Shown here: piece after piece, positions 205-37,524 of the stretch
Position numbering within the stretch: the first letter of the stretch is position 1
Layout: each line of letters begins with the position of its first letter
Program-made: the position numbers and the translations under genes
Notes under the pieces: generated by a model
What the model saw: only the letters and a program-made list of their open reading frames with translations
The model's database searches: none
Told to the model about the DNA's origin: nothing
NCBI RefSeq assembly: GCF_001696615.3
Contig: NZ_CP032279.1
Location: 2,914,001-2,978,000 of the forward strand
DNA from: Acinetobacter sp. WCHAc010034
Lineage (GTDB): Bacteria; Pseudomonadota; Gammaproteobacteria; Pseudomonadales; Moraxellaceae
DNA: 64,000 nucleotides
Reading direction: 5' to 3'

Positions 205-402
205 CACCGAAGTGATAATGCCAGTCAGTTAAGCATTTTTAATCCTCCCCAACCCTCCTTTTTCAAAGGAGGGAGCGTTTTGAAATTCAATACGGTATTG
301 AATTCAAAGGTGTTCCCCTCTTTTTAAAAGAGGGGTTAGGGGAGATTTATAAATTTGCAACAATGAAGTTGCGCTTAACTGATCAGCATTACACCGAAGT
401 GA
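205..402. repeat. MITE copy 1 (element 216-391) with 11-bp target duplications, in the adeIJK terminator
   Basis: The 176-bp element at 216-391 begins TAATGCCAGTCAGTTAAG and ends, on the other strand, TAATGCTGATCAGTTAAG (15 of 18 identical). It is flanked by perfect 11-bp direct repeats CACCGAAGTGA at 205-215 and 392-402. The interior holds two large palindromes (CCCTCC...GGAGGG and CCCCTC...GAGGGG) and no gene. Joining the flanks recreates a hairpin of the form AAAAGC-TCAC-TTCG-GTG-GCTTTTTT on the minus strand, which reads as the terminator of adeIJK. Relative to the copies at 18387 and 37246 this one is inverted. Confidence 0.8.
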
Positions 403-422
403 GCTTTTAAAAGATGCAGAAC

Positions 423-1874
423 TTATTTGGCTGCAGCTTTGCGTTCAGCGGATGAAGGCTGAGCTTGAACGGCATCTGAGCTGCTGGCTTTAATGCCGCC
501 GCCCAAAGACTTGTACAGTTCAACCTGATTGTTCAGGTTAGCCTGCTCCAGCAGCAGCAGGCCTTGCTCAGCAGCGTAGGAGGTACGCTGCGCATCCAGC
601 ACCGTCAAATAGTTGTCAATGCCTGCGCGGAAGCGGGCATTCGACAGCTTGTAAGTGGTATTGGTGGCATCGACCAGGCGGCGCTGCGCGGAAATGCGGT
701 CGCCGATGTTCTGGCGCACAGCCAGCGCATCGTTGACTTCGCTGAATGCGGTCTGCACGGATTTTTCATAGTCTGACAATGCAATCTGCTGGTCAGTTTC
801 TGAAATTTTCACATTGGCTTTGCGCGTGCCCCAGTCCCAGAGCGGAATGTCCAGGCTTGGGCCGACCGACCAGATAAAAGCGCCGGATTTAAACAGGTCG
901 CTCAGGTCAGTCGATGCATAGCCGGCGGAACCGGTCAGGCTGATGGTCGGGAATAATTTCGCTTTGGCAGCGCCAATATTCGCGCCGGCAGCGGACAGCT
1001 TATATTCGGCTGCCCGGACATCTGGACGGTTGTTCAGCAGGTCGCTTGGCAAGCCCGCGCCAATCGCGCTGTTGGCGGTAATGCGGCTGACGCGCTGATT
1101 CGGCAGCAGGTTTGCAGGAACCTGCTGGCCCACCAGGAGGTTCAGCGTGTTCTGCGCCTGAGCGACTTGGGTTTTGTAGTTCGCTACGTCATTGCGCGCA
1201 GTTTCAACAGAAATCTGCGCCTGGCGCACCGGAACTTCACTGTCGATGCCGACATCAAAGCGCTTCTTGTTCAGATTGTAAGATTCAAGCTGCGTTTTGA
1301 GGGTCTGATCGGCCAGCTTCAGGTTGGCATTGGCGAAAGAATAGCTGAGCCATGCCTGGGCAACTTGGCCAACCAGCGCGATCTGCGTTGCGTCACGCGC
1401 GCTTGCGGTGGCCAGGTAGCTGTCCAAGGCATTGTCTTTCAGGCTGCGGACACGGCCCCAGAAATCCAGCTCATACGCCGTCACGCCTAAGCCGACATTG
1501 TAGGAAGTCACCGGCTTCTGCGAATTGAGCGTGTCTTGGCGCAATACGCCGCCGCTGGCGCCAATGGTCGGAAGCTGATTATTGGAAGTGATCTGGTACT
1601 GCTGCTGCGCGCGCTGAATATTCAGGGCGGCAACACGCAAGTCACGGTTATTGGCCAGTGCCAGATCCAGCACCTGAGTCAGGCGCTGGTCAGCAAAGAA
1701 ATCTTTATAGCCTTGGGCCGCAGCGGATGAGCCAGAAGCATAGCTGCTGAAGCCTTCCGGAATATTCGCCTGAGCGGCTGGTTCTGGACCGCGCATGCTT
1801 TGGCAGGCAGCCAAAGCAAGCGCAAGTGAAGAAACCGCAATGCTACGACCTGCAATAGACCATACTTTTTGCAT
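423..1874 (-). CDS. adeK: Outer-membrane channel of the AdeIJK RND efflux pump
   Basis: TolC/OprM-type outer-membrane factor that forms the exit duct of the AdeIJK tripartite multidrug pump. The protein (483 aa) has a lipoprotein signal peptide with lipobox LAAC (about residues 21-24), then two repeats of the outer-membrane efflux protein domain, with the family signature GLPSDLLNNRPDVRAAE near the middle. Length and sequence fit AdeK of A. baumannii. The ATG at 1874 overlaps the adeJ stop codon by one base (TGATG), implying translational coupling; a GTG at 1877 could also be read but the coupled ATG is more likely. Last gene of the operon. Confidence 0.93.
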   Translation of the reverse strand: MQKVWSIAGRSIAVSSLALALAACQSMRGPEPAAQANIPEGFSSYASGSSAAAQGYKDFFADQRLTQVLDLALANNRDLRVAALNIQRAQQQYQITSNNQLPTIGASGGVLRQDTLNSQKPVTSYNVGLGVTAYELDFWGRVRSLKDNALDSYLATASARDATQIALVGQVAQAWLSYSFANANLKLADQTLKTQLESYNLNKKRFDVGIDSEVPVRQAQISVETARNDVANYKTQVAQAQNTLNLLVGQQVPANLLPNQRVSRITANSAIGAGLPSDLLNNRPDVRAAEYKLSAAGANIGAAKAKLFPTISLTGSAGYASTDLSDLFKSGAFIWSVGPSLDIPLWDWGTRKANVKISETDQQIALSDYEKSVQTAFSEVNDALAVRQNIGDRISAQRRLVDATNTTYKLSNARFRAGIDNYLTVLDAQRTSYAAEQGLLLLEQANLNNQVELYKSLGGGIKASSSDAVQAQPSSAERKAAAK

Positions 1875-4800
1875 CACGATGTTTGCTCCTGATTGTTTTG
1901 TTTCTTAGGTTTGTATTTAAAGATGGTGCGAATCCAAACAAAGAAGACTGGAATGAAGAAAATACCTAAAAGCGTCGAGCTGATTACGCCGCCAAGCACA
2001 CCATAACCGACAGAATGCTGGCTTCCCGCACCTGCGCCGCTTGCAAGAGCCAATGGCAGAACGCCGAAACCGAAAGCAAGGGTGGTCATGATGATTGGGC
2101 GCAAACGCATTTTCGCCGCATGCAGGGTGGCATCAAACAGGTCTTCGCCTTTTTCCTGCAGTTCTTTGGCAAATTCTACAATCAGAATCGCGTTCTTCGC
2201 AGAAAGGCCAATCACGGCAACAATTGCGACCTGGAAGTAGATGTTGAACGACAGGTTAGGATCGCCTTTAATCATCATGCCCAGCCAAGTCAAGGTAAAT
2301 GCGCCGACAATGCCGAGCGGCACAACCAGCAGTACAGAAACCGGAATCGCCCAGCTTTCATACAGCGCTGACAGGCAGAGGAATACAATCAGCATAGACA
2401 GGATCAATAACGGCAGGGTCTGGTTGCCGGAATCACGCTCTTCTAAAGACAAGCCTGTCCATTCATAGTCGAAACCTTGCAGGCCCATAGACGGCAGCTT
2501 GCCAATGATTTCTTCCATCGCCAGCATTGCGTCGCCCGAGCTTACGCCCGGTGCAGGCGTACCCTGAATGTTGACCGATGATACGCCGTTGTAGCGTTCC
2601 AGACGCGGTGAACCGTAGGTCCATTGACCTGTCGCAAATGCGGAGAACGGAACCATTTCGCCTTTGTTGTTGCGTACATACCACTTGTTCAGGTCTTCAG
2701 GCATCATGCGCGTATCGGATTCGCCCTGAACATAAACTTTCTTCACGCGGCCGCGGTCAACGAAGTCGTTGATATACGCGCCACCCCAAGCCATGCTCAT
2801 GGTGCTGTTGATATCGCTGACGCTCACGCCCATTGCGCCGGCTTGCGCCTGGTCAATGGTGATCTGGTACTGCGGTGTATCTTCCTGGCCGTTTGGACGC
2901 ACGCCTGCAAGACGCTTGTCCTGGGATGCCATGCCTAAAATCGCGTTGCGGGCAGCAATCAGTTTTTCATGCCCTTGGCCGCTGACATCTTTTAACTGAA
3001 TGTCAAAGCCGGAAGACACGCCTAGCTCAGGCATGGCCGGCAATTGCAGCGGCATGATGTAGGAAGCGTCCTTCACGATCATGTTCAATGCCATGCCGTG
3101 CTGGATGATCGCGCCAATCTGCGATTCAGGCGTAGTGCGCTCGCTCCAGTCTTTCAGCTTGATAAAGGCCAGGCCGGCATTTTGACCGACACCCGTGAAC
3201 GAGAAGCCGGAAACCGTAAAGATCGACTCCACATGCTCTTTTTCCTTATTCAGGAAGTAGTCAGTCATGGTGGTGATGACTTTATCGGTACGCTCAAGGC
3301 TTGCGCTTGGCGGCAGCTGCACCAGCGTCATGACGACGCCTTGGTCCTCTTCCGGCAGGAATGAAGACGGCAATACTTTGTACAGGCCGACTAAGGACGC
3401 AATTACGGCAATATAAATGACTCCAGAGAAGATCTTGTGGTGAGTCATGCGGTTGACGCCGCCTTGGTATTTTTCCGCCAGCTTGTCAAAGCCGCTGTTA
3501 AACCCGCGGAAGAAGCGCGCAAAAATACTGTTGCTTTCAGGCTTGTTCGGATCATGCTGTTTCAGCAGGGTCGCGCACAGGGCAGGGGTAAAGGTCAAGG
3601 CAACAATCAGCGACAGAATCATCGCTGTAACCAGCGTGATGGAGAACTGGCGGTAAATTACCCCGGTTGTGCCGCTGAAGAATGCCATCGGCACGAATAC
3701 CGCGGTGAGTACGCTGGTAATGCCGACTAGGGCGCCGGAAATCTGCTGCATGGATTTTTCTGTGGCTGCCACAGGGTCAAGATGCTCTTCCTGCATGACC
3801 CGTTCGACGTTTTCAACCACAACAATCGCATCATCGACCAGCAGGCCGATCGCCAGCACCATGGCGAACATGGTCAGCGTGTTGATTGAGAAGCCGAAAA
3901 TATTGATCACTGCGAAGGTGCCCAGTACAACTACAGGAACCGCAAGCGTAGGAATAACCGTCGCGCGCCAGTTCTGCAGGAACAGGAACATCACAATGAA
4001 GACCAGAATGACTGCTTCAATCAGAGTGTGCACCACACTTTCAATTGAGAGCTTAACAAACGGCGTGGTGTCATAAGCCAGCTTGTCTTTCAAGCCGTCC
4101 GGGTAGTTGTTGCGCAGCTCGCTGAGGCGCTCTTCTACAGCGGCGGCTGTATCCAGCGCATTCGCGCCTGTCGCCAGCTTAATCGCAACACCGCCCGCAG
4201 GCTTGCCGTTAAATTTAGAATCAAACTGATAGTTGTCTGAACCTAATTCCACCCGCGCAACGTCACCCAAGCGGACTTGAGCGCCGGAAGCGGTATTTTT
4301 CAGGAAGATATTTTTAAACTGTTCCGGCGTCTGCAGCATGCTTTGCGCATTCACGGTCGCGTTCAGCACTTGGCCTTGAACCGCGGGCGCGCCGCCCAGC
4401 TGGCCTACAGCCACCTGCGCGTTCTGGGTTTTAAGCGCAGCTGCAATATCGCTAGGCGTCACTTGCAGGCTGGTCATTTTCGCCGGGTCCAGCCAGATGC
4501 GCATGGCGTACGAGCCGCCAAAGACCTGGACTTCCCCCACGCCTGTAACACGGCTAAGCGATTCGGAAATGTTGGAGTTTACATAGTCTTTAATGTCGGC
4601 AGCGGACAGGCTTTCATCCGGAGAGTAGAACGCCACAACCTGCATAAAGCTTGCGCCGGACTTGGTGACTTTCACGCCTTGGCGCTGCACGTCTTCAGGC
4701 AAAAGCGCGGTGGCTGACTGCAGCTTGTTCTGCACCTGAACCTGCGCAATATCCGGGTCAATCCCTTGCTCAAAGTTCAGGTTGATGGATGCCTGGCCAT

Positions 4801-5053
4801 TGCCGGCGCTGTCTGAAGAAATATAGCGCAGGCCGTCGAGGCCATTCATCTGCTGTTCAATGATCTGCGTTACGGTGTTTTCAACCGTTTGCGCAGAGGC
4901 GCCAGGGTAGGTTGCCGAGATGGTCACCGTGGGCGGCGCAATCGTCGGATACTGTGCAACCGGCATCTTAGTCAGCGTGAGGATACCCGCCAGCATAATG
5001 ACCAGTGCAATCACCCATGCGAAGATGGGGCGGTGAATAAAAAATTGAGCCAT
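1874..5053 (-). CDS. adeJ: AdeJ, inner-membrane RND multidrug transporter
   Basis: Proton-driven HAE1-family RND pump subunit (1059 aa), the trimeric inner-membrane engine of AdeIJK, which exports beta-lactams, chloramphenicol, tetracyclines, fluoroquinolones and other compounds in A. baumannii. Twelve membrane helices and two large periplasmic loops are apparent. The TM4 proton-relay motif GLLVDDAIVVVENVERV, with the adjacent Asp pair, lies near residue 407, and the second-half signature FQVAIVAVIGLSAKNAILIVEFA is intact. Nothing suggests inactivation. It sits 12 bp after adeI and overlaps adeK, so the three are one transcript. Confidence 0.95.
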   Translation of the reverse strand: MAQFFIHRPIFAWVIALVIMLAGILTLTKMPVAQYPTIAPPTVTISATYPGASAQTVENTVTQIIEQQMNGLDGLRYISSDSAGNGQASINLNFEQGIDPDIAQVQVQNKLQSATALLPEDVQRQGVKVTKSGASFMQVVAFYSPDESLSAADIKDYVNSNISESLSRVTGVGEVQVFGGSYAMRIWLDPAKMTSLQVTPSDIAAALKTQNAQVAVGQLGGAPAVQGQVLNATVNAQSMLQTPEQFKNIFLKNTASGAQVRLGDVARVELGSDNYQFDSKFNGKPAGGVAIKLATGANALDTAAAVEERLSELRNNYPDGLKDKLAYDTTPFVKLSIESVVHTLIEAVILVFIVMFLFLQNWRATVIPTLAVPVVVLGTFAVINIFGFSINTLTMFAMVLAIGLLVDDAIVVVENVERVMQEEHLDPVAATEKSMQQISGALVGITSVLTAVFVPMAFFSGTTGVIYRQFSITLVTAMILSLIVALTFTPALCATLLKQHDPNKPESNSIFARFFRGFNSGFDKLAEKYQGGVNRMTHHKIFSGVIYIAVIASLVGLYKVLPSSFLPEEDQGVVMTLVQLPPSASLERTDKVITTMTDYFLNKEKEHVESIFTVSGFSFTGVGQNAGLAFIKLKDWSERTTPESQIGAIIQHGMALNMIVKDASYIMPLQLPAMPELGVSSGFDIQLKDVSGQGHEKLIAARNAILGMASQDKRLAGVRPNGQEDTPQYQITIDQAQAGAMGVSVSDINSTMSMAWGGAYINDFVDRGRVKKVYVQGESDTRMMPEDLNKWYVRNNKGEMVPFSAFATGQWTYGSPRLERYNGVSSVNIQGTPAPGVSSGDAMLAMEEIIGKLPSMGLQGFDYEWTGLSLEERDSGNQTLPLLILSMLIVFLCLSALYESWAIPVSVLLVVPLGIVGAFTLTWLGMMIKGDPNLSFNIYFQVAIVAVIGLSAKNAILIVEFAKELQEKGEDLFDATLHAAKMRLRPIIMTTLAFGFGVLPLALASGAGAGSQHSVGYGVLGGVISSTLLGIFFIPVFFVWIRTIFKYKPKKQNNQEQTS

Positions 5054-5065
5054 TCAGTCTACCCC

Positions 5066-6325
5066 TTATGCATTTGAAGCAGCTTTTGGTTCAGTTTTGG
5101 CTTCAGCTGCTGGGGCCGGCTTAGCTTGCCCTGCTGCTGGCTGCTGCGCGCCTTGAGGGGCTGCGGCTTGCGGCTGATAAGGCTTTGCAGTCACTTGCTG
5201 TTCTGGCTTAACTTTTGCAATGCCGTCTACAATCACTTTGTCACCTGTTTTCAGGCCGGCAGTGACAATCCAGTCTGCGCCCTGAACGCCTGCAGTAGTG
5301 ACAGGGCGCGGCTCTACGGCGCCTTTGTCATTGACAATCATCGCCATGGCCTGGCCTGTCGGCGTGCGGGTAATGGCCGCCTGCGGAATCAGCATGGCGT
5401 TCGGAATAATGGCCTGCACAATCTGCGCTGTGGCGAACATGCCCGGCAGCAGCAGGTGATTCGGGTTGGAGAACACTGCGCGCAGGGTGACTGTGCCGGT
5501 GTCCGGATTTACGCTGGCATCGGAGAATGCCAGGCGGCCTTCCAGCGGGTAGTAGCTGCCGTCTTCAAGCTTCAGCTTTACGGTGGTGTTGTTGCTGCTG
5601 TTCAGGTCGCCCTTGCTCAGCTGCTGGCGCAGGCGCAGCAGTTCGGCGCTGGACTGGTTGATGTCCACATAAATCGGGTCTAGGCGCTGAATGGTCACCA
5701 TCGGGCTGGCCTGGCCTGAAGTCACTAAAGCGCCGACAGTAACGGTAGAGCGGTTGGTTTGGCCGGAAATCGGCGCGCGCACAACCGAGTAGCCTAGGTC
5801 AATCTCCGCGCTTTTGATTTGCGCTTGCGCCGCTGCGACCTGCGCTTCAGTCACTTTAACGCTGCCTAGCAGGTCATCGTATTCCTGCTTAGACACGGCA
5901 TTGATTGCAACCAGCTGCTGATAGCGGTTGAGCTTGGTGCGCAGCGCGTTTAAATTCGCCTGCTGCTGCAGCATGGCGGCTTTGGTGCTTTCCAGGGCAG
6001 CGCGGTTGCTGCGCGAATCCAGCTCATACAGCGCCTGGCCTTCACGCACATAGCCGCCTTCAGCAAACAGGCGCTTCAGAATGACGCCGCTGGTTTGCGG
6101 GCGCACTTCAGAAATTTCATAGGCTGTCGTGCGGCCCGAAAGTTCTACCGACTGCTCTACGCTTTGCGGCTGAGCAACAATAACGCCGACCTCAGCAGGA
6201 GGCATTTTCTGGGCAGCCCCAGCTTGCTGCGCATCTTTCGGATCTTTGCTGCAGCCGACAAGTGCAATACTTACCGCTAATGCGCAAGCAGTCAGGGCGG
6301 GTGCCCAAAGCTTTGCAGACCTCAT
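5066..6325 (-). CDS. adeI: AdeI, periplasmic adaptor lipoprotein of AdeIJK
   Basis: Membrane-fusion protein (419 aa) that bridges the AdeJ transporter and the AdeK channel. Lipoprotein signal peptide with lipobox LVGC at residues 22-25. After it come the barrel-sandwich/lipoyl halves, an alpha-helical hairpin rich in Gln and Ala (about residues 100-175), the beta-barrel domain, and a membrane-proximal domain. The C-terminal tail of about 35 residues is a low-complexity Pro/Ala/Gln/Lys segment. First gene of adeIJK. The gap to the upstream PAP2 gene is only about 34 bp, so the operon promoter probably lies within the end of that gene. In A. baumannii the pump is repressed by the TetR-family AdeN, which is not encoded here. 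Confidence 0.94.
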   Translation of the reverse strand: MRSAKLWAPALTACALAVSIALVGCSKDPKDAQQAGAAQKMPPAEVGVIVAQPQSVEQSVELSGRTTAYEISEVRPQTSGVILKRLFAEGGYVREGQALYELDSRSNRAALESTKAAMLQQQANLNALRTKLNRYQQLVAINAVSKQEYDDLLGSVKVTEAQVAAAQAQIKSAEIDLGYSVVRAPISGQTNRSTVTVGALVTSGQASPMVTIQRLDPIYVDINQSSAELLRLRQQLSKGDLNSSNNTTVKLKLEDGSYYPLEGRLAFSDASVNPDTGTVTLRAVFSNPNHLLLPGMFATAQIVQAIIPNAMLIPQAAITRTPTGQAMAMIVNDKGAVEPRPVTTAGVQGADWIVTAGLKTGDKVIVDGIAKVKPEQQVTAKPYQPQAAAPQGAQQPAAGQAKPAPAAEAKTEPKAASNA

Positions 6326-6359
6326 TCTTTCACCTCAATAGATTCTTATCTGAAATTCT

Positions 6360-6962
6360 TTATTTATTTGCGCTTGGGTATCTGGCCATAAGCCAGTACA
6401 GAAGCGTGATCCAAATAAAACTTATGCTCCAGCCAGAAAGGACATCGGAAGGATAATGCGCGCCGGCATAAACTCTGGATACGCCCATCAGCAGTATCCA
6501 TGCGCTTGCCAGCAGGCAGATCAGCGCATGCTTTGAATGCCGCCGGTAAACGTACATCGCTAAGCAGCCCAGTGCAGCTGCATAAAGGCTGTGCCCGCTT
6601 GGAAATGAATCTCCATATGTTTTTACCAGAAAATACATTTCAGGCGGGCGCGGTCTTGAGATGAGGCATTTAAGCAGCCAGGCGAGGCCGATGCTTCCGA
6701 TAATTCCTGTACTGATAAAAACAATATCTGAGTATTTTTTATACCATGCCAGGCGCAAACACCAAAGCACGGCTAAAAATAATACAAAAGGCATGCCGCC
6801 CGCTGCTGAAAGTCCGGCTGCTAAGTTATTTAAACTATTCAGGTGGTGCTGATGCATCCACTGCACCGCAGTCCAGTCAAACTGGGCAAGCTGCGGCACA
6901 TTTAAGATCAACACACTGATAGCTAATAAAAAACAACCGAGGAAAAGCAACAGCTTCGGCAT
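6360..6962 (-). CDS. PAP2-family membrane phosphatase
   Basis: Integral-membrane phosphatase of the PAP2 superfamily (200 aa), likely acting on lipid phosphates such as undecaprenyl pyrophosphate, phosphatidylglycerol phosphate or phosphatidic acid at the periplasmic face. The three catalytic signatures are all present: K-x6-RP (Lys98 to Arg105-Pro106), PSGH (121-124) and SR-x5-H-x3-D (Ser162, Arg163, His169, Asp173). Five or six hydrophobic segments are visible. The ATG at 6962 is chosen because AAGGA lies just upstream; an in-frame ATG at 7040 would add 26 polar residues with no clear ribosome site. It precedes adeIJK on the same strand; a functional link to the pump is unknown. Confidence 0.85.
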   Translation of the reverse strand: MPKLLLFLGCFLLAISVLILNVPQLAQFDWTAVQWMHQHHLNSLNNLAAGLSAAGGMPFVLFLAVLWCLRLAWYKKYSDIVFISTGIIGSIGLAWLLKCLISRPRPPEMYFLVKTYGDSFPSGHSLYAAALGCLAMYVYRRHSKHALICLLASAWILLMGVSRVYAGAHYPSDVLSGWSISFIWITLLYWLMARYPSANK

Positions 6963-7115
6963 GCTTATATCCTTGTCATTTAGCCGCTCAATATTCACGG
7001 CTAATTTGTGGGGTAAAGTGTACTCGCCAGTACACTTCATTTCAAGTGTGCGTAAATTATGCTAATTTCTTTTTTGTGTTTTTTTAACACTCAGTAATAT
7101 AAATTAACAAATCCC

Positions 7116-9167: not shown

Positions 9168-9194
9168 AAGCAATGAGTAACAGGCTCTTCAGTT

Positions 9195-18376: not shown

Positions 18377-18696
18377 GCAGCTGGCGTAATGCTGATCAGT
18401 TAAGGAGTTTCGCAGTAAACTTCTTAACTTTTTTGGGCTATTCACGACGGAGTCTTACCGTTTTAAATTGATTTTTTGGAGCTCGTTTTGTTCTTTTGTT
18501 TCGCCAAAAGAACCAAAAGCATTTGTCATCCGCGAAACCTGTTCACTTTCTGCACTTAAATAACTTTGTTGCAAAAACAGTCCATTTCAAAGACCATATA
18601 GGTTGCGGATGACACTTCCGCGTATCAAACAATCTCGCAAGTTTCAAAAAGAAAAAGCCAGTCAGTTTCTTAACTGACTGGCATTAGAAACTGGCG
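18377..18696. repeat. MITE copy 3 (element 18387-18686) inside a bidirectional terminator
   Basis: The 300-bp element starts TAATGCTGATCAGTTAAG and its other end, read inward, is TAATGCCAGTCAGTTAAG. Flanks are imperfect 10-bp direct repeats, GCAGCTGGCG (18377-18386) and GAAACTGGCG (18687-18696), 8 of 10 identical. Joining the flanks gives AAAAGGCGC-AGCTG-GCGCCTTTT, a terminator between two converging genes. The right end holds a hairpin GCCAGTCAGTT/AACTGACTGGC. The interior contains an inverted pair GTCATCCGC (18525-18533) and GCGGATGAC (18605-18613) and no gene, and differs from copies 1 and 2. Confidence 0.72.
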
Positions 18697-18737
18697 CCTT
18701 TTTGCATTTGCATTATTTAAGCACTGCGCAGGCCATT

Positions 18738-29325: not shown

Positions 29326-29391
29326 TACGCCGAACAGGCGTAATGTGCTTCAGTAGCTTGGTGAGCGCGGTGGTCGGGAAACTGCAGGCGC

Positions 29392-30006
29392 TTAGGCCGA
29401 GTTCTTGCGCTGCCGGCGTCTATACCACAGCCATGCCAGAACTGCGCCGGCAATGGCCAAAATACTGTAGCCGGCGCGGCTGAAAATCTCATGCATCAGC
29501 GCCTGATTTTCGCCAAAATAAAAGCCCACGCAGGCCAGAAAAGTCGTCCAGATGACGGTGCCAAGGCTGCTGTAAAGCATAAATTTCCAGAAGGGCATGC
29601 GGCTCATGCCGGCGGGAATGCTGATCAGCGAGCGCACGGCGGGAATCATGCGCCCGAAAAATACAATGCGGTGGCCGTATTGCTGAAACCAGAGCAAAGA
29701 TTTTCTGACATCTTCAGATTTGATAAACAGGTATTTGCCGTAGCAGTCGGTAAAGCGGAAAATCGTCTCATGATTGAATTTATAGCCCACCCAGTACAGC
29801 ACGGCGGCGGCCGCCAGTGAGCCGATGCAGCCGGAGATAATCACGCCAATCAGCGCCAGCTGCCCTTGCGAGGCGGCATAGCCGGCGGAAGGCATAATGA
29901 TTTCAGACGGAATCGGCGGGAAGACGTTATCCAAAAACATCAGCAGGGCAATGCCGAGATAGCCCAGCTGCTCCATAACCGAAATGATCCAGTCCTGTAT
30001 GCCCAT
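29392..30006 (-). CDS. DedA/SNARE-associated family membrane protein
   Basis: A 204-aa DedA-family inner-membrane protein; some members recycle undecaprenyl phosphate or phosphatidylethanolamine and help maintain proton-motive force. Family hallmarks are present: the re-entrant DNVFPPIPSEIIMPSAGYAA near residues 25-45 with the conserved Glu and Pro, and GRMIPAVRSLISIPAGMSRMP with the paired Arg near residues 120-135. At least four hydrophobic segments are seen. A basic tail RRRQRKNSA ends the protein. It appears to be a single-gene unit. Confidence 0.9.
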   Translation of the reverse strand: MGIQDWIISVMEQLGYLGIALLMFLDNVFPPIPSEIIMPSAGYAASQGQLALIGVIISGCIGSLAAAAVLYWVGYKFNHETIFRFTDCYGKYLFIKSEDVRKSLLWFQQYGHRIVFFGRMIPAVRSLISIPAGMSRMPFWKFMLYSSLGTVIWTTFLACVGFYFGENQALMHEIFSRAGYSILAIAGAVLAWLWYRRRQRKNSA

Positions 30007-30192
30007 AGCGCTTTAACCTGTTTAAATAATTCAATAATAAAGGGTTTCAGCGCAGAATTATGTAGCTTTATTTAAGCTTGCGCGGAGTTTCATCGCATGG
30101 CTTGCGCGGGCGGGCTGAATGAAAAGCAGGGCAGCCACATAAAAAAGGCCGCAAAATTGCTTTTGCGGCCTTTTCAGTTCAGCGTGCGCAGA

Positions 30193-31125
30193 TTACAGGC
30201 GCTTGCGCTTCGCCGCCGCAATTTGCGACTGGCGCATGCGGAAGCCTTCTTTCTGCTTTTCAGAGGTTTTGTCGATGCAGTATTTGCATGACACGCCGTG
30301 CTCATAGCTGGCCAGCGCAGCTTCATCAGGAAGCAAAGGCCAGCCGCAGGCGTGGCATTTAATATTCGCGCCTTCTTCCATGCCGTGAGTTACCGCGGTG
30401 CGGCCGTCAAAGACAAAGCATTCGCCTTCCCACATGCTTTCTTCAGCCGGGGTTTCTTCAAGGTATTTCAAAATGCCGCCTTTCAGGTGGTATACTTCCT
30501 GAAAGCCTTCCTGCAGCAGCAGTGAAGTTGATTTTTCACAGCGGATGCCGCCGGTGCAGAACATGGCGATTTTCTTATCTTTATGCTCTGCGAGATTCTG
30601 CTTTACGTATTCCGGAAATTCGCGGAAAGTTTCAGTTTTCGGGTCAATTGCGCCTTTGAACGTGCCGGCTTTATATTCGTAGTCATTGCGCGTATCTACC
30701 AGAATAACGTCATCGCGGGCAATCAGCTCATTCCATTCTTTCGGGTCCAGGTAGTGGCCGACTAAGTCGCGCGGCTTCACTTCTACGCCTAAAGTGACAA
30801 TTTCTGTTTTATGCTTGATTTTCATTTTGCGGAACGGCTTTTCAGAGCTGTGAGACTCTTTATATTCCATTGACGCAAAGCCTTCATTCAAAAGAAATTG
30901 ATGAATGACATCTACAGACTGGCGGTCACCGGCAACGGTGCCGTTAATGCCTTCGTCTGCCACAATCAGAGTACCGCACAGGTTGATGGTTTTTACCAAA
31001 TCGAGCAGGCGCTGCTGCAAGCCTGCAGAGTCCTGAACTTCTTTGAATTGATAAAGCGCTGCAACAACCCAGCCTGCGGCCGCATGCTGTTCTACAGGTG
31101 CAAGCTGTTCTACAGTAGCGTTCAT
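30193..31125 (-). CDS. trhO: tRNA uridine-34 5-hydroxylase TrhO (YceA-type rhodanese)
   Basis: Rhodanese-fold enzyme (310 aa) that makes 5-hydroxyuridine at tRNA position 34 with oxygen. It has an N-terminal acylphosphatase-like domain (ALYQFKEVQD...GTLIVADEGINGTVAG), a central rhodanese domain with the active-site Cys in MFCTGGIRCEKSTSLLLQEGF, and a C-terminal Cys-rich zinc-like segment (CHACGWPL..., VSCKYCIDKTSEKQK). The start at ATG 31125 is chosen because GGAG lies just upstream; the open frame continues back to 31359 but that extra part is Arg/Cys-rich and unlike any TrhO. Confidence 0.92.
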   Translation of the reverse strand: MNATVEQLAPVEQHAAAGWVVAALYQFKEVQDSAGLQQRLLDLVKTINLCGTLIVADEGINGTVAGDRQSVDVIHQFLLNEGFASMEYKESHSSEKPFRKMKIKHKTEIVTLGVEVKPRDLVGHYLDPKEWNELIARDDVILVDTRNDYEYKAGTFKGAIDPKTETFREFPEYVKQNLAEHKDKKIAMFCTGGIRCEKSTSLLLQEGFQEVYHLKGGILKYLEETPAEESMWEGECFVFDGRTAVTHGMEEGANIKCHACGWPLLPDEAALASYEHGVSCKYCIDKTSEKQKEGFRMRQSQIAAAKRKRL

Positions 31126-31304
31126 GGATACTCCAATTAAGACAGTGAATTTTTTAAAGGCGCATATTTTAGCGCGAATTGCGCGAATATGCGAGCAATA
31201 TGCCCGGCATTCACAGCTTCTCATCCAGCGGGAGAGGGTGTATATTCTTGGCCTGCCGGTTTGACGCCGGTTCAGCGGATTTGATGATTTTTTAGGAGCA
31301 TGCT

Positions 31305-31793
31305 TTGAGTACGGATCGCCGGATTGCCTCACTGACCCCGTGCGCGGGGCGCTGTTCAACCGTGTTTGGCGACTCAGTTTGCCGCGGCTGCCGGCGCTTT
31401 AACCATGAAGTGATCAAGTGGAACAGCTATACGCCGGAACAGCACAGCGCTGTATGGAAAAGGCTGGATGCGCAGCTGGATCAGATCCTTGTTCCGATGC
31501 TTCCTTTTGCCGACTTGTGCCATGTTGAAGGCTTTGTGCTGTCTAAGCGCGCGCGCTTGCGCCCGGATGCCAGCCCAGGCCGCAAGCTGTACCATGCCCT
31601 GAAAATCTGCGAGAAAAATAAAAATTTTGCTGATGAAAGCGGCCTGGGAATTCAAGGCAGCCGCGTTAAGCCCTTGTGGCAGGAATTTGAACGGCGCGTG
31701 CTGGCGCTGGCCGAGGCCAGCTATGATTTGGCCTTTTTGCGGGCAGACGGCATCAGCCATAATTTGATCCACAGGGCGGAAGACGATGAGTGA
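31305..31793 (+). CDS. DUF1289 family protein
   Basis: A 162-aa protein whose N terminus is a DUF1289 domain: TPCAGRCSTVFGDSVCRGCRRFNHEVIKWNSYTPEQHSAVWKRLD, with four Cys spaced as in a small metal-binding site. The C-terminal part is not part of the named domain and is conserved mainly within Acinetobacter relatives as far as I can tell. The start is TTG, supported by AGGAG eight bases upstream; an ATG slightly earlier is out of frame and stops at once. Function unknown. Divergent from trhO. Confidence 0.75.
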   Translation: MSTDRRIASLTPCAGRCSTVFGDSVCRGCRRFNHEVIKWNSYTPEQHSAVWKRLDAQLDQILVPMLPFADLCHVEGFVLSKRARLRPDASPGRKLYHALKICEKNKNFADESGLGIQGSRVKPLWQEFERRVLALAEASYDLAFLRADGISHNLIHRAEDDE

Positions 31794-31843
31794 AAGCTTT
31801 TTTATACCATCCGGGAAAATAAATAGATGAAGCGGGCGCAGCC

Positions 31844-32461
31844 ATGAATGTTGTTGAGTTTATTTTGTATTGTGCGGCCGTGATTGTGATGATCGCGACG
31901 CCGGGGCCAGTGATGCTGCTGGTGGCCAGCGCCGGTCTGCAGGGTGGCTATAAAAAGGCGCTGCAGACCATCTTTGGCACGAACTTGGCCTCACTGATTT
32001 TAATCGCGCTATCGGTGCTGATTCTGAAAGGCTTTTTAACGGTTGATGCGCAATGGTTTAATGCCATTAAAATTCTAGGCTGCCTGTATATTGCCTATAT
32101 CGGCCTGCAGATTTTAAGGGAAGCGCTGCAGGCGCCGCCGTCCGACGCATCCGGCAGCATGCAGCTGCAGGCTGTGCGGGGCGGCTTTAAGCAGGGTTTT
32201 CTGGTGGGCATTTCCAATCCTAAGGATATTATCTTTTTTGCGTCATTTTTCCCGCAGTTTACCGGCATCACCTCAGAGCTGAATGTCAGCTTGGCCGTGC
32301 TGACGGTGACCTGGATTATTCTGGATTTCAGCACGCTGTCCCTGGTGTATCTGGGGTTCAACCGGCTGGCGCAATCCAGGCTGTATGCAAAGCTTTTGGC
32401 CGGCTGCGGCCTGATGCTGGTCGCTGTGGCGCTGTACGGCATTTATTCGGCGCTGTTTTGA
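31844..32461 (+). CDS. LysE/RhtB-family amino-acid exporter
   Basis: Six-helix inner-membrane exporter of the LysE/RhtB family (205 aa). It has the signature MIATPGPVMLLVASAGLQGGYKKALQTIFG near the N terminus and GFLVGISNPKDIIFFASFFPQF in the middle. The exported amino acid or metabolite cannot be deduced. Its last 19 bp overlap the end of the convergent TetR gene, so no terminator separates the two and transcripts must overlap. Confidence 0.88.
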   Translation: MNVVEFILYCAAVIVMIATPGPVMLLVASAGLQGGYKKALQTIFGTNLASLILIALSVLILKGFLTVDAQWFNAIKILGCLYIAYIGLQILREALQAPPSDASGSMQLQAVRGGFKQGFLVGISNPKDIIFFASFFPQFTGITSELNVSLAVLTVTWIILDFSTLSLVYLGFNRLAQSRLYAKLLAGCGLMLVAVALYGIYSALF

Positions 32462-33003
32462 AAGCAGGCAGTCATTTTAAACAGCAGCTTTTTTGAATGG
32501 GCTGCTGTTTCAGCATCATAGCCTTCCACTAAAAAGCGGCTGATCAGGCCTTCAAGCTGATGGTAGAACATCGCGCTGAGTTCCTGAGCGCCGTTTAGTT
32601 CGGCCGTGCATTGCGCAATCAGCCCGCGCAGCCAGAGCTTATGCGCCTTGGCGATCTGATGGATTTCCGCTTCCTGCGAGGAAGACTCACTCACGGCGCG
32701 GACAAATAAGCAGCCTTTGAAATGGTCCGCCTGAAACCACTGCATGTGCCAGTCATAAATCCGCTCCAGCGCATCCAAGCCCTGCGCATCCGCCGCATAG
32801 TCCATCAGGCTTTGCCTGAAGCGCAGATCGCGCTCTTTAAGCACCTCCTGCACCAGCTGCTGCTTATTTTTAAAATGCGTGTACAGCGTGGTTTTGGAGC
32901 AGCCGGATTCATCGCGGATTAAATCCACCCCAACGCCGGTAAAGCTGTGCTGATTGAACAGCTGCTCAGCTGTGCTGAGAATTTTCTGCGCCGATTTAGA
33001 CAT
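32443..33003 (-). CDS. TetR-family transcriptional regulator
   Basis: A 186-aa TetR-family repressor. The N-terminal helix-turn-helix is clear (KILSTAEQLFNQHSFTGVGVDLIRDESGCSKTTLYTHFKNKQQLVQEVLKER, residues 5-58), and the C-terminal ligand domain is longer and less conserved. Start at ATG 33003, with GGAAGGAAA upstream; an ORF start at 33084 would run through the operator. It is divergent from the HPP gene with a perfect 16-bp palindrome between them, so it probably represses itself and that gene, and perhaps also LysE, which it faces. Confidence 0.9.
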   Translation of the reverse strand: MSKSAQKILSTAEQLFNQHSFTGVGVDLIRDESGCSKTTLYTHFKNKQQLVQEVLKERDLRFRQSLMDYAADAQGLDALERIYDWHMQWFQADHFKGCLFVRAVSESSSQEAEIHQIAKAHKLWLRGLIAQCTAELNGAQELSAMFYHQLEGLISRFLVEGYDAETAAHSKKLLFKMTACFQNSAE

Positions 33004-33033
33004 TTCGCCGTTTCCTTCCGCATATTTGCAATA

Positions 33034-33049
33034 AGTACAGATCTGTACT
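33034..33049. promoter_or_regulatory. TetR-type operator in the tetR/HPP intergenic region
   Basis: Perfect palindrome AGTACAGATCTGTACT, centred about 40 bp from the TetR start and about 60 bp from the HPP start. The core TACAGATCTGTA is typical of TetR-family operators. Confidence 0.7.
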
Positions 33050-33102
33050 ATTTTAATTTTAGCGCGCTGACTGTCTAAAATCAATTGTAAGGGGAATGCG
33101 GG

Positions 33103-33636
33103 ATGCTTTTATTTCAGGGCCGGGGAAAACCGGCGCAGCGGCCGGCGGCTGCCGATCTGCTGCGCGGCTTAATCGGAGGCGGCCTCAGTGTGTACATGCT
33201 GCTGGCGCTCACGGAATATTCCGGGCATATGTGGATTATGGCGCCGTTTGGCGCGAGCTGCGTGCTGCTGTATGCCGCCCCGCAGTCGCCGCTGGCGCAG
33301 CCGCGGAACATTATTCTGGGGCATCTGATTTCGGCATTTGTGGGCCTGTGCTTTGCGCACTGGCTGCCAGTCAATATGTTCAGCATCTCGCTGGCTACTG
33401 GGCTGGCCATTGCCTGCATGCAGTTTTTAGGCTGCGTGCATCCGCCGGCCGGCGCAAATCCGCTGCTGATTCTGCTGACGGCGCAAACCGCGCAGTATGG
33501 CTGGAGCTTTCTGCTGTTTCCGGTCTTGGCGGGCGCAGTGAGCCTGGTTGCGGCGGCTTATGCGGTCAATCATCTGGCGCTTTTGGCGCAGCGTCTGGCA
33601 CTTTTCTTGGTTCGGCTGAAGGCGGAAAAAGGCTGA
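33103..33636 (+). CDS. HPP-family membrane protein
   Basis: A 177-aa membrane protein of the HPP family, four or five hydrophobic helices, with the name-giving motif CVHPPAGANPLLILLTAQ around residues 110-127 and FGASCVLLYAAPQSPLAQPRNIILGHL near the middle. Related proteins transport nitrite in chloroplasts and cyanobacteria, but in bacteria the substrate is generally not known. Probably regulated by the divergent TetR protein through the palindrome at 33034. Confidence 0.8.
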   Translation: MLLFQGRGKPAQRPAAADLLRGLIGGGLSVYMLLALTEYSGHMWIMAPFGASCVLLYAAPQSPLAQPRNIILGHLISAFVGLCFAHWLPVNMFSISLATGLAIACMQFLGCVHPPAGANPLLILLTAQTAQYGWSFLLFPVLAGAVSLVAAAYAVNHLALLAQRLALFLVRLKAEKG

Positions 33637-33748
33637 GGGCCTCGCAGGCGGGGCTAATCTGATGCTATTGCTGTTCTGCAGGCTGATCAAAAAATCCCAG
33701 CTAGGCTGCGCTGCTGGGATTGCGGATCTTAAAGGCTGTGTGCCGCTG

Positions 33749-34408
33749 TTAAAGCTTGTGCGCTAAGCGGTACTGCACAATTTCGTCGATGCTGATCAGC
33801 GTTAAATGATGGGTTTGGGCATAGGCTAACACTTGAATGCCGGATGCCATGGTGCCGTCGGAATTGGTGAGCTCGCACAGCACGCCGGCAGGCTTCAGTC
33901 CGGCCAGCCGTGCTAAGTCGGTGCTGCCTTCGGTATGGCCGCGCCGGGTCAGCACGCCGCCGCTGCGTGCGCGCAGAGGGAAGACGTGGCCGGGGCGGTT
34001 TAAATCGCCGGGCATTGCGCCGTCTTTAATGGCGGCGTGAATGGTGGTGGTGCGGTCTTTTGCGGAAACCCCGGTGGTGACGCCCTCAGCAGCCTCAATG
34101 GTCACGGTAAAGGCGGTTTTGAACTGGCTGGAGTTGTCATCCACCATAGGCGGCAGCTGCAGATGGTTCGACAGCTCATCGGTCAGGCACAGGCAGACAA
34201 TGCCTGAACCGTCGCGGATCATGCGGGCCATGGTTTCTACAGTCAGAGTTTCAGCAGCTACAATCAGGTCGGCTTCATTTTCTCGGTCAAAATCATCCAT
34301 GACCAGAACAGGCTTGCCTTGGCGCAGGTCTTCCAGCGCCTGCTGAATGCGCTGCTCAAAAGGGGGAAGTGCAGAAAAGAAAATTTCGGGTTGAATTAAA
34401 CTGGACAT
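33749..34408 (-). CDS. ribB: 3,4-dihydroxy-2-butanone-4-phosphate synthase
   Basis: RibB (219 aa) makes the four-carbon precursor of riboflavin from ribulose 5-phosphate with Mg2+. The active-site stretch [18 protein letters not shown] is at residues 36-53, and [31 protein letters not shown] provides the second catalytic part with the metal-binding His. It lacks the GTP cyclohydrolase II half found in fused RibBA proteins. Preceded on the same strand by an FMN riboswitch, so it is turned down when FMN is plentiful. Confidence 0.95.
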
Positions 34409-34456
34409 TGAAACGCTCGCGTAAATTTAAAGTACGGTTGAACATTTCAGGACATT

Positions 34457-34488
34457 GAAAAATAGGCGCAGCAAATCAACTGCAGCGC
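34457..34488 (-). terminator. Candidate expression-platform terminator between the FMN riboswitch and ribB
   Basis: On the minus strand GCGCTGCA and TGCTGCGC pair (one T-T mismatch), followed by a T-rich stretch CTATTTTT, about 50 bp before ribB. Confidence 0.5.
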
Positions 34489-34510
34489 AGGCTGCAATTG
34501 AGCTTGATTA

Positions 34511-34665
34511 CGTCGTCTTCTTTCATCCGGACTATACCGTCGGCTTTGGATTTGCACCAAATCTGCGAAGCGCTGCTGGCAGCGCAAGGCTCGTGGGCTG
34601 ATTCAGTCAGGAATGAATTCATGCTGAACTTACCACCGGTGGGGAATTGCGCCCCGCCCTGAAGC
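34511..34665 (-). ncRNA. FMN riboswitch (RFN element) of ribB
   Basis: The minus strand reads with the conserved RFN blocks: CTTCAGGGCGGGGCG at the 5' end, ATTCCCCACCGG with GGTAA, a variable arm, GCCCACGAGC, CAGATTTGGTGCAAATCC, AAAGCCGACGG and finally TAGTCCGGATGAAAGAAG. All the FMN-binding core segments are present. It is about 155 nt long and ends about 100 nt before ribB. Confidence 0.95.
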
Positions 34666-34836
34666 GATGTGCAGCCATTATAGACCTGTTTGGCGCGCAA
34701 AAGGGGGATTTTGACCGGTGAGTAAACGCAGAATTTAATATAAGCAAAAGAGTTATTTTGATTTGTAAGCATTTTTTTGAAATGCGGAAAAGCGTGCTAT
34801 GTTTGCTTAAGCATCAGGCGCTGTTAAAACATAAAA

Positions 34837-36633
34837 ATGAACCCATTTGAAATGAAGCCGAAAAACCAGTTTTCTCCTGTTTTATTTACTTATCCCTCAG
34901 TCATTCAGCATTTGCATGTGATTGGGCTGGCGCTCATTGCAGTCAGCGTACTGTATCTGATTGCCGCCAATTGGCTGATGCTGCCGAAAATCATTCAGCT
35001 GCTGATTCCGCAAATTTTCCTGCTTATTTCCGCATCGGCCAGCGTGTGGCTGCTGGCATCGAATGATGCTGTCCGCCAGGCATTGGATGGCATTTCAGGA
35101 CTAATGCTCGGCTTAAGCATGGCGGTGATCGGGCAGGTCTATCAAACCGGCGCAGACAGCTATCTGCTGTTTCTGGTCTGGGCGCTGCTGCTGCTGCCTT
35201 GGCTGTACCGCCCGAATATCGGCGTTTTTGCGCTGTTCTGTGTCGTGAGCCAGTTCGCACTCTTAATGTTTTTCAAGCAAAGCTTCTGGATGAACCAGGA
35301 GCTGAGCGTTTATCTGCTCTGCCTCAGCATCTGGACAGGGCTGTGCTTTATTGCCTGCATTAAGCGGTATTTCAGCTTGCGCTATCTGTTTAGCGCTTTT
35401 GCGGCGGGAATGTCTCTGCTGAGCATGTTCAAATATTGTGAAGATTATGCATGGGCTTACCTTGCGCTGTCGATGCTGCTGCCGATGGCTTTCAGCCTTT
35501 ATTTCTACCTGCAGCGCATGGCTTTGGAAACCAGCCTGCAGGTGGCGGGGCTGGCGGCCAGTTTCAGCATCCTGATTTTTCAGCTCACGGAAGATGCCTT
35601 GCCGGATTCCGCTGCCGGCTTGCTGGTGCTGGCGGCGCTGATTTTTGCATGGTTTGCCGGAATCAGCGCGGTGCTGATGAAAATGCTGCCGAAAACCAAG
35701 TTCGCCGCCATTCCTTTGGCCTTGGGCGCATGGTTCGCCGGGATTATCCTGTCTTCTTTGCTGCTGACTTACTGGAAGGTTTTTTCCATTGCTGCGGGGC
35801 TGGCCTTTATTGCGGCGGCTTGGCTGGTGATCCGCCGCACATCCAGCGTGTTTTTGCGCCAGCTGGCATACTGCCTTTGGATTTGCGGCCAGGCTGCGGT
35901 GCTGGCGCATACTGAACTGCTGACCGGCAATACAGCCTTGATCTGCCTGATTCAGTTTTTCTTTGCGGCGCTGTGCATATTCAGCCGCATGCACTGGCTG
36001 ATTGTGCTACTGCAGCTGGCGGTGCTGTACGGCTTAGGCCTTGCGGCCCTGCTGGATGCAGTAGGCTACGGCAATCAAGCATCTCTGCGTTTTTATATCA
36101 TTTCACTGAATTACGCGCTTCTGACCCTGCTGCTGTGCAGCGCGCCGCTGTGGCTGAAATCGGCTTACCGCGCAAGTTTCAGCTTATGGATTCTGCTGAT
36201 TCTGGCTGCAGCTGCCGTGCTGCAGCTGGCGCTTCATTCAGGTTCTCCGGCGGATGCGCCGCCAAGCCTGTGGGCGAATTATCTGCTGCCGGGCATATGG
36301 CTGCTGAGTTTCTGCCTTATTCACCGTACAGCCTTGCTGCAGCCTCAGCTGTGGGCCATCCCTGCGCTCGCCGCGGCTTTGATGCTGTTCGGTTATTTTG
36401 AGATCTTCATTCTGCTGGCGCTTCTGGCCTGGTCGGTGGCCTATCAGCAGCGCCTGGTTCAGGCGCTGTCGGTGCTGCTGCTGGTCTTTTGGCTGTGGCT
36501 GCTGTATTACAGCCTGGGCGTCAGCTTCCTGATGAAAAGCCTGAGCATTTTTCTGTCGGGGCTTGCTGTTCTGCTGCTTGCGCATCTGCTCGCTCAGAAC
36601 AGCAGGACAGCAGTTCAGGGAGGCGCAGCATGA
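34837..36633 (+). CDS. DUF2157-type polytopic membrane protein
   Basis: A 598-aa inner-membrane protein with about fourteen hydrophobic segments. The N-terminal 150 residues (LHVIGLALIAVSVLYLIAANW... and DGISGLMLGLSMAVIGQVYQTGADSYLLFLVWALLLLPW) match the DUF2157 domain. The remainder is a long run of helices. Function is unknown. It overlaps the following GDYXXLXY gene by four bases (ATGA), a pairing that recurs in many bacteria, so the two products probably work together in the membrane. No clear Shine-Dalgarno; an in-frame ATG at 34852 is an alternative start. Confidence 0.78.
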   Translation: MNPFEMKPKNQFSPVLFTYPSVIQHLHVIGLALIAVSVLYLIAANWLMLPKIIQLLIPQIFLLISASASVWLLASNDAVRQALDGISGLMLGLSMAVIGQVYQTGADSYLLFLVWALLLLPWLYRPNIGVFALFCVVSQFALLMFFKQSFWMNQELSVYLLCLSIWTGLCFIACIKRYFSLRYLFSAFAAGMSLLSMFKYCEDYAWAYLALSMLLPMAFSLYFYLQRMALETSLQVAGLAASFSILIFQLTEDALPDSAAGLLVLAALIFAWFAGISAVLMKMLPKTKFAAIPLALGAWFAGIILSSLLLTYWKVFSIAAGLAFIAAAWLVIRRTSSVFLRQLAYCLWICGQAAVLAHTELLTGNTALICLIQFFFAALCIFSRMHWLIVLLQLAVLYGLGLAALLDAVGYGNQASLRFYIISLNYALLTLLLCSAPLWLKSAYRASFSLWILLILAAAAVLQLALHSGSPADAPPSLWANYLLPGIWLLSFCLIHRTALLQPQLWAIPALAAALMLFGYFEIFILLALLAWSVAYQQRLVQALSVLLLVFWLWLLYYSLGVSFLMKSLSIFLSGLAVLLLAHLLAQNSRTAVQGGAA

Positions 36634-37205
36634 AAAAGATGATTCCGCTTTATCTTGCGCTGTTCAGTATTGCATTGTTCCTGGGAATGATTGCGCGCCA
36701 TGAGTGGCGCCTTGCGCACAGTGACAGTATTTTTGTCAGGCTGATGCCGGCCGATCCGCGCTCGCTGCTGCAGGGCGACTATATGGCGCTGAATTATCAG
36801 CTGTATTTTAGCGGCTTAGCGCCGCAGGATGATTCATCTCCGGCCCGCAGTTCTGCAGAGGTGGCGGCTGAAGATTTCAAGAATAAGCCGCAGGTGCTTG
36901 CTTATGTGCAGCTTGATGGGCAGCGCCGCGTAATAAAAACCGGCTTTGATGAAAAAATTCTGGCAGCCTATCCGGCTTCTTCTGCAAAATTGATCTTAAA
37001 AAATCCAAACAACAGCTTTGAAAGCCTGTATCCGGCAGCTGACAGCTTCTTGTTTGCGGAAGGGCTTGAGCCGTGCTACCGCAATGCGCGTTTTGCTAAG
37101 TTGAAGGTGCAGGCAAATGGCCAGCCGCTTTTGGCTGGACTGGCGGACGAAAATTTAAAAGCGCTAAACTGCGAACAGCGCGGTGAATGGTGGCAGGGCA
37201 GCTGA
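36630..37205 (+). CDS. GDYXXLXY-domain membrane-anchored protein
   Basis: A 191-aa protein with an N-terminal membrane anchor (LYLALFSIALFLGMIA), then a periplasmic or cytoplasmic domain with the family signature LLQGDYMALNYQL (GDY-xx-L-x-Y) near residues 50-62. A Cys-bearing C-terminal part follows (GLEPCYRNARFAKLKVQANGQPLLAGL). Coupled to the DUF2157 gene through an ATGA overlap with an AGGGAGG ribosome site inside that gene. Function unknown. The operon's terminator downstream has been split by MITE copy 2. Confidence 0.78.
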   Translation: MKKMIPLYLALFSIALFLGMIARHEWRLAHSDSIFVRLMPADPRSLLQGDYMALNYQLYFSGLAPQDDSSPARSSAEVAAEDFKNKPQVLAYVQLDGQRRVIKTGFDEKILAAYPASSAKLILKNPNNSFESLYPAADSFLFAEGLEPCYRNARFAKLKVQANGQPLLAGLADENLKALNCEQRGEWWQGS

Positions 37206-37234
37206 AGGGCCTGATTTCGAGCCATAAAAAAGCC

Positions 37235-37524
37235 CGCAATATTGCTAATGCTGACAAAAATACAAGCTATGCAATTGTTTTTTTAAGCAGCATTTAATTC
37301 ACAATGGAAATTCCCTCTCCTTTTTAAGGAGAGGGCTAGGGTGAGGATTTTATTAAAAAAATTCCCTCAGCCTAACCTTCTCCCAAAGGGAGAAGGAACT
37401 TTTCAATATTAATTTTTTTGCCAATAAATGATCATTTATTGATTTATGAAATAGATCTATTTGAATGACTCTAGAATTTAAAAAGCCAGTCAGTTTTTAA
37501 CTGACTGGCTTTACGCAATATTGC
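37235..37524. repeat. MITE copy 2 (element 37246-37513) splitting a terminator
   Basis: A 268-bp element beginning TAATGCTGAC and ending, read inward, TAAAGCCAGTCAGTTAAA. It is flanked by perfect 11-bp direct repeats CGCAATATTGC at 37235-37245 and 37514-37524. Joining the flanks recreates AAAAGCCCGCAA-TATTGCGGGCTTTT, a perfect terminator. The right end carries the hairpin AAAAAGCCAGTCAGTT/AACTGACTGGCTTT, able to act as a substitute terminator. The interior has palindromic CCCTCTCC/GGAGAGGG and CTTCTCCC/GGGAGAAG units like those of copy 1. Confidence 0.85.

Follow-up and report, generated by a model that had tools for sequence, protein, structure and literature searches.

IS4-like miniature elements of Acinetobacter are mostly seated in predicted intrinsic terminators, as are most of their autonomous IS4-subgroup relatives

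We analyzed a 64,000-nucleotide stretch of Acinetobacter sp. WCHAc010034 (the window; positions 2,914,001 to 2,978,000 of NZ_CP032279.1), part of a 3.63-Mb contig in a genome of 3.84 Mb. Among stable RNA genes, a riboswitch and a transposase gene, it holds miniature inverted-repeat transposable elements (MITEs) whose ends are of the type found in IS4, a long-known insertion sequence (IS) (Table 1). An earlier sequence-only reading had described three such elements, proposed that all of them interrupt rho-independent terminators and named a full IS4-subgroup relative as their possible mover. The positions it gave for the elements proved exact on re-reading, and the flanking repeats are as it claimed: perfect over 11 bp at copies 1 and 3, and 10 bp long with two mismatches at copy 2. 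The joined flanks form a T-tailed hairpin in each case. Two distinguishable end types, TGA and CAG, are present, with those of copy 3 decayed. The ends that it gave for IS4 were also right; those of E. coli K-12 read TAATGCCGATCAGTTAAG and TAATGCCAGTCAGTTAAG. A fourth, decayed copy had been overlooked. Overall, the observation of terminator-seated IS4-like MITEs is confirmed and its interpretation is supported, with amendments described below.

The exact 18-bp end occurs 63 times in the genome and its reversed control pattern not once, so these matches are not due to chance; with up to three mismatches the counts are 268 and 100, respectively. We assembled 54 elements with both ends, 52 of them paired automatically and two added by hand, while approximately 18 single ends were left unpaired and stand outside this set. 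The 54 form clusters of 22, 20, 5 and 3 plus four singletons, with mean identities of 75-86% among linked pairs, and the three window copies fall in three different clusters. Within two subfamilies, the most similar pairs are approximately 98% identical. Because interiors are conserved within subfamilies, one cannot conclude, as had been suggested, that selection acts on the ends alone. The elements measure 154-467 bp, apart from one composite of 2101 bp, and their target duplications are mostly 10-13 bp. Exact ends are present in 61 of 175 genus genomes, and the number is highest in this one. Rfam, searched at the gathering threshold, gave no match at the elements. Copy 1, an element of the short kind, folds end to end with z = -10.2. 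Palindromic repeats of the CCCTCTCC..GGAGAGGG type lie inside copies 1 and 3 (236-352 and 37313-37400), and a similar repeat adjoins another copy in this genome, at C13:390494. The composite (L053, C13:193587-195687) is a MITE with a nested IS bearing GGCTTTGTTGCACAAA ends, a type listed for ISAba12 (PMC6382973). Its 319-residue DDE transposase was considered as the autonomous partner of the MITEs and rejected, since it is part of the nested IS.

An IS4 transposase was not found in this genome, using a query that was positive in 16 of the 175 genus genomes. From the 71 matches listed (at most nine scored candidates per genome) we took 30 loci and used 28, dropping one at a contig end (L117) and one partial copy (L139). 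These autonomous copies are 1389-1393 bp long, or 1423 bp for the two in genome G105 (L127 and L138). Their ends are of the TAATGC type in 26 of 28 cases; L127 and L138 have CAATGCTGTTCACTTAAG (CAATGC) instead. Two copies in one congener (L112 and L128) have one CAG and one TGA end, as in the MITEs; they are full-length relatives of the kind that the sequence-only reading had named. The IS4 subgroup is defined by D(60-110)D(100-150)E with Y(2)R(3)E(6)K, -AATR ends and 10-13 bp repeats (De Palmenaer et al. 2008, PMC2266710). L112, L127 and L187 match the IS4 family model NF033592 with 252, 273 and 284 bits (cut-off 115), and D133, D209, E314, Y307, R310 and K321 (E. coli numbering) are invariant across seven transposases. 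By family model, DDE and YREK residues, -AATR ends and duplications of mostly 10-13 bp, the autonomous relatives belong to this subgroup. The subgroup's length criterion is 1400-1650 bp; 56 copies from other Gammaproteobacteria, introduced below, measure 1409-1438 bp, with one of 1587 bp. The transposase of E. coli IS4 is 36-39% identical to those of the full-length Acinetobacter relatives.

The earlier link to IS4 ends was correct, as the ends match IS4 exactly. The CAG end of the long MITEs is 84-100% (mostly 92-100%) identical to an autonomous end over its outermost 35-38 bp, a stretch that includes the hairpin, and at copy 2 the terminal 38 bp are 97% identical to the right end of the autonomous IS L126. 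The 176-bp MITEs have only approximately 18-22 bp in common with autonomous ends. The window elements are short and carry the parent's terminal repeats and duplication length, as IS4-derived MITEs should. We might suppose that another family, such as the other resident ISs, moves elements that are IS4-like at their ends only; the genome does contain other DDE transposases, and our search of it gave none of the IS4 type. This is extremely improbable. The MITEs agree with autonomous IS4 relatives over 18 bp at the TGA end and, if long, over as much as 38 bp at the CAG end, and they have the same duplication length and target. In addition, the resident DDE elements tested, 15 of 20 matches (those outside the test being L037, L038, L042, L049 and L050), were rejected as movers on the basis of their different ends and sites. 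We conclude from these likenesses that the MITEs are, in all probability, derived from IS4-subgroup insertion sequences and would have been moved in trans by an IS4-type transposase now gone from the genome. Elsewhere, the CAG end recurs, over its terminal 35-42 bp and with 93-97% identity, in plasmids of Klebsiella pneumoniae (H65) and Enterobacter bugandensis (H70), and a plasmid search for near matches to the L112 IS gave no match.

To score the targets, we rejoined the flanks of each element and called a site a terminator when its minimum free energy was -7 kcal/mol or lower and an A or T run of at least 4 was present. In this genome 43 of 54 sites pass, against 255 of 1687 positions picked at random in it, so that the copies are not mostly in non-hairpin DNA; the hairpin dyad lies within 1.5 bp of the duplication center in 35 of 54. 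A second hairpin rule also passes 43 of 54 sites; random positions pass it at 380 of 3928 and swapped flanks at 801 of 1063. Its failures include sites that are terminator-like by eye (450177, 454965 and 2265356). The elements lie between convergent (24) or codirectional (21) genes, with 3 between divergent genes, 4 inside an open frame and 2 unresolved. Other ISs of this genome, 15 copies examined, are in terminators in two cases and have both runs in none.

The autonomous copies show the pattern more sharply. All 28 have a hairpin with A and T runs of at least 4 on both sides; at random positions, a hairpin with either run is found in 113 of 951 and runs on both sides in 3%. Every one of the 28 has its dyad no more than 0.5 bp from the duplication center. 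Distances to the closest gene 3' end are 19-55 bp, and the neighboring genes are codirectional at 16 sites, convergent at 12 and divergent at none. In L112, L114 and other autonomous ISs, the left-end terminator that directly precedes the transposase gene itself has the arrangement A-tract, hairpin, T-tract, and it is possible that it serves as a self-target.

Outside the genus, we scanned named genomes (Enterobacterales, Pseudomonas, Vibrio, Alteromonas, Colwellia and others) and kept the best 80 of 401 relatives. Twenty-three were dropped by hand as near a locus end, and a re-check found both ends with flanks in only one of these (L182), whose site is hairpin-like by eye. The remaining 57 were looked at and 56 scored, the ends of L222 not being found. 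Of the scored copies 52 pass, 44 with both runs, and the context is convergent for 28, codirectional for 19, inside an open frame for 7 and divergent for 2. For E. coli IS4, 18 copies read among 5360 places gave 11 distinct sites, scored by eye; eight are terminators, at crr/pdxK, adhE (two), fumB, metK, bamD, glgP and ymcF/cold-shock gene. At one adhE copy (L299), the terminator core is inverted, not direct, between the two sides of the element. MITEs of other congeners (16 stretches, 15 pairs) are in terminators in 13 of 15 cases, again by eye. Taken together, the targets fit the structure of intrinsic terminators, with a GC-rich hairpin beside a T run or an opposite-strand A run, and are predicted as such at 43 of 54, 28 of 28 and 52 of 56 sites. 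The claim that this MITE targets terminators holds as far as targeting goes; what needs amending is its attribution to the MITE, as the habit seems to be a property of this IS4 group in general, E. coli IS4 included.

Relatives show empty sites for copies 1 and 3. At the locus of copy 1, the exact predicted empty string GCCCACCGAAGTGAGCTTTT is present in 10 of 24 relatives' loci and a near-exact empty terminator in 17, and an element end in none of the 24. For copy 3, none of 23 relatives has an element end at the locus, and in 20 of them a loose regular expression picks up a related hairpin, empty, at the corresponding position.

The pattern could in principle arise without targeting, if IS4 elements inserted widely and only the least harmful copies, between gene 3' ends, survived. 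The position of the autonomous copies just past gene 3' ends, never between divergent genes, is what this would produce. However, survivors of this kind would scatter over intergenic DNA, and the exact centering of the dyad in 28 of 28 copies is not scatter. Nor do the 15 copies of other ISs show such a pattern in the same genome, and the in-gene copies of E. coli IS4 still have A-rich and T-rich arms. We therefore consider an absence of targeting very unlikely.

How might the site be recognized? Compared to nearby terminators, detected targets have runs on both sides more often (22 of 23 versus 11 of 22, Fisher p = 0.0006), and a second comparison scored 31 of 37 targets as bidirectional against 5 of 38 nearby terminators (p = 4e-10). 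We then located the cuts at those sites, 61 of 97, where the duplication is exact and both runs occur. They mostly enter the tracts by 2-3 bp, at 49 of 61 sites on the left (A) side and 49 of 61 on the right (T) side, and the distance is equal on both sides at 43 of 61. At sites lacking a hairpin (L143, the K-12 site, L169 and L171), an A-rich left arm and a T-containing right arm are kept.

One alternative is that the transposase is drawn by a structure or process: a cruciform extruded from the DNA, RNA polymerase in the act of terminating, or the hairpin in the RNA. Hairpins are present at most sites, and flanks fold more stably when matched than when swapped (-14.0 versus -10.4 and -16.9 versus -12.4 kcal/mol), both of which such a mechanism would explain. 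It does less well with the A tract, which accompanies the T tract more commonly in targets than in background terminators, with the hairpin-less sites that retain an A-rich arm, and with the use of both codirectional and convergent neighbors. We regard this alternative as unlikely, since the excess of both-run sites and the symmetric cuts favor a symmetric double-stranded site over a choice coupled to RNA or polymerase; a cruciform is still conceivable. We infer that the transposase reads such a site. The anatomy of many sites shows a preference for bidirectional intrinsic terminators and cuts placed evenly on either side of the hairpin dyad, mostly 2-3 bp into the A and T tracts that flank it, which leaves a duplication of approximately 10-13 bp over the loop and inner stem. 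The target would be approximately A5-GC-N~11-GC-T5, read through both half-sites and not through RNA or the terminating polymerase. Two further ideas were tried and rejected: that tract spacing sets the duplication length, for which the correlation is partly built in and so was not used, and that insertions are oriented toward the incoming transcript, for which no clear bias appeared in four element sets.

Where insertion splits a terminator, many of the elements bring a predicted one of their own. In 27 of 29 autonomous elements (the 28 copies and E. coli IS4), all but L127 and L138, both ends have a T-tailed hairpin that reads inward and lies within 110 nt; the same test is passed by 90 of 723 and 182 of 2000 random 110-mers. 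Within 80 nt, the long MITEs have an inward terminator at the CAG end in 32 of 33 cases and at the TGA end in 11 of 33, against 140 of 2000 random 80-mers, and the short MITEs have one in only 2 of 21 and 1 of 21, respectively. Terminators at the 5' and 3' sides within ISs are already known (PMC2965389). Because of these inward terminators, insertion may swap rather than destroy a terminator. For long elements, it is plausible that insertion replaces the terminator that it splits, with the element's own inward terminators taking over at both ends in autonomous elements and at the CAG end in long MITEs. Insertion into terminators could amount to the safe-site strategy that had been proposed for the MITE.

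Several observations count against this picture of terminator targeting. The terminator test is failed by 11 of the 54 elements in this genome, where A and T runs on both sides are found at just 43% of sites, and by 4 of 56 copies from other Gammaproteobacteria, with no T run at L209. Three of the 11 E. coli sites (5 of the 18 copies read) are not terminators, namely yicI, an oxidoreductase gene and the K-12 site, all three still with A-rich and T-rich arms; the sites of L313 and L315, among the MITEs of other congeners, are not terminators either. Outside the 28 autonomous copies, the gene context is not clean, given the in-frame and divergent sites already listed (4 and 3 of 54; 7 and 2 of 56). 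A simple hairpin rule defined the background terminators, and it misses some of the targets themselves, picking up just 24 of 28 and 39 of 56. Swapped flanks often pass the terminator test as well (355 of 525 in this genome, 260 of 274 for autonomous copies) because the arms are stereotyped, nearly a consensus; the need for pairing itself is therefore not demonstrated by these data. Duplication length correlates with tract spacing at r = 0.47. Orientation shows no clear preference (9 versus 4 for long MITEs, 4 versus 4 for short, 10 versus 6 for autonomous copies and 10 versus 9 for the others). Replacement of the terminator is not general, because most short MITEs lack inward terminators and the long MITEs have them at the TGA end in just a third of cases. 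Finally, selection against harmful insertions could contribute by sharpening the pattern, although it does not account for the exact centering. Weighing all of this, we put the probability of the whole explanation, in which IS4-derived MITEs are mobilized in trans, target bidirectional terminators through a symmetric site and probably replace the terminator, at roughly 85%.

Table 1. Elements, target duplications and other features of the window
Feature	Position	Strand	Remarks
MITE copy 1	216-391 (176 bp)	- (as TGA to CAG)	CAG end left, TGA end right; cluster of 20, mostly 176-190 bp
Copy 1 target duplication, left	205-215		CACCGAAGTGA, 11 bp, identical to 392-402
Copy 1 target duplication, right	392-402		joined with 196-204 and 403-408 gives back AAAAAAGCCCACCGAAGTGAGCTTTT
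MITE copy 2	18387-18686 (300 bp)	+	TGA end left, CAG end right; cluster of 22, approximately 300-390 bp
Copy 2 target duplication, left, imperfect	18377-18386		10 bp, 2 mismatches: GCAGCTGGCG / GAAACTGGCG
Copy 2 target duplication, right, imperfect	18687-18696		rejoined flanks form a hairpin ahead of T5 at 18699-18703
Copy 2 CAG-end inward-reading terminator-like hairpin	18654-18685	-	14-nt arms
Copy 2 TGA-end inward-reading T-tailed hairpin	18399-18434	+	
MITE copy 3	37246-37513 (268 bp)	+	ends decayed: TAATGCTGACAAAAATAC / TAAAGCCAGTCAGTTAAA; cluster of 5, 268-329 bp
Copy 3 target duplication, left	37235-37245		CGCAATATTGC, 11 bp, perfect
Copy 3 target duplication, right	37514-37524		CGCAATATTGC; rejoined flanks give AAAAAAGCCCGCAATATTGCGGGCTTTT
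Copy 3 CAG-end inward-reading hairpin, then T5	37482-37512	-	fails the strict tail rule for inward terminators
Fourth copy, decayed	50818-50966 (149 bp)		flanks AAAACCTGC / GCAGGCTTTC are hairpin halves, by eye
FMN (flavin mononucleotide) riboswitch	34511-34669	-	
Four tRNA genes	40059-40495	-	equal scores
RNase P RNA	52385-52762	+	
DDE transposase gene	53695-54162	-	six-copy family; TAGGGCGTGTTCTCATTTGA-type ends here and in most copies

Group IIC introns resemble these elements in inserting at intrinsic terminators; unlike them, they are retroelements with an RNA-based mechanism. IS4 itself was, according to an old report, found in the pheST attenuator. As an element, E. coli IS4 is like the MITEs in having a CAG end with an inward terminator hairpin, distal to the transposase gene, a CGA end close to the MITE TGA end, target duplications that we read as 11-14 bp and, at most of its sites, terminator targets; it differs from them in being autonomous and 1426 bp long. 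Another Acinetobacter MITE, MITEAba12, has likewise been explained by mobilization in trans, but it has ISAba12-type ends, 9-bp duplications, AT-rich targets and a length of 111-114 bp (PMC6382973). ISRm22, of the IS4 family, and other ISs insert into repetitive extragenic palindromic (REP) sequences; all listed copies of one IS4-family member are in REPs, and a table places 3 of 11 IS4 copies of a Shigella genome at REPs (PMC1525189). These ISs are similar in using extragenic palindromes, with the difference that their targets are REP sequences and not intrinsic terminators. The 2008 survey of the subgroup noted conserved, "spectacular" target arms in some members, and the word "terminator" is absent from its main text as available to us (PMC2266710). 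We found no statement that IS4 elements target terminators in the literature searched, mostly without subscription papers, including the accessible parts of PMC2266710, PMC9208149, PMC2265553, PMC6382973, PMC10969869, PMC1525189 and PMC2965389.

A class-wide search at E <= 1e-40 was positive in only 2 of 369 genomes, and for this reason the phylogenetic boundary of the habit is not placed. The copies found (L147, L148 and L149) are more distant IS4-family elements with GAATGGCACTTACTTAAG ends beside GGGTCAG inverted repeats on both sides, and their sites contain no A/T-flanked terminator. The GGGTCAG repeats may represent a different palindromic target or part of a terminal repeat of greater length.

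We lean, by a little, toward a broader proposal: that most of the IS4 subgroup, IS4 included, consists of terminator-seeking and terminator-carrying transposons. A transposase dimer would read the mirror halves of a bidirectional terminator (A-tract plus GC, GC plus T-tract) and cut across the dyad, and the element's own inward terminators would take over both sides, making insertion near-neutral for transcription. MITEs would inherit the targeting, and some would keep one terminator. If true, this provides a simple insertion-site rule for a whole IS subgroup and may account for the target arms noted in 2008 (PMC2266710). It would point to transposition directed at a genomic landmark that is both abundant and fairly safe, and it would open to direct test the question of how a palindromic target is recognized by a DDE transposase.

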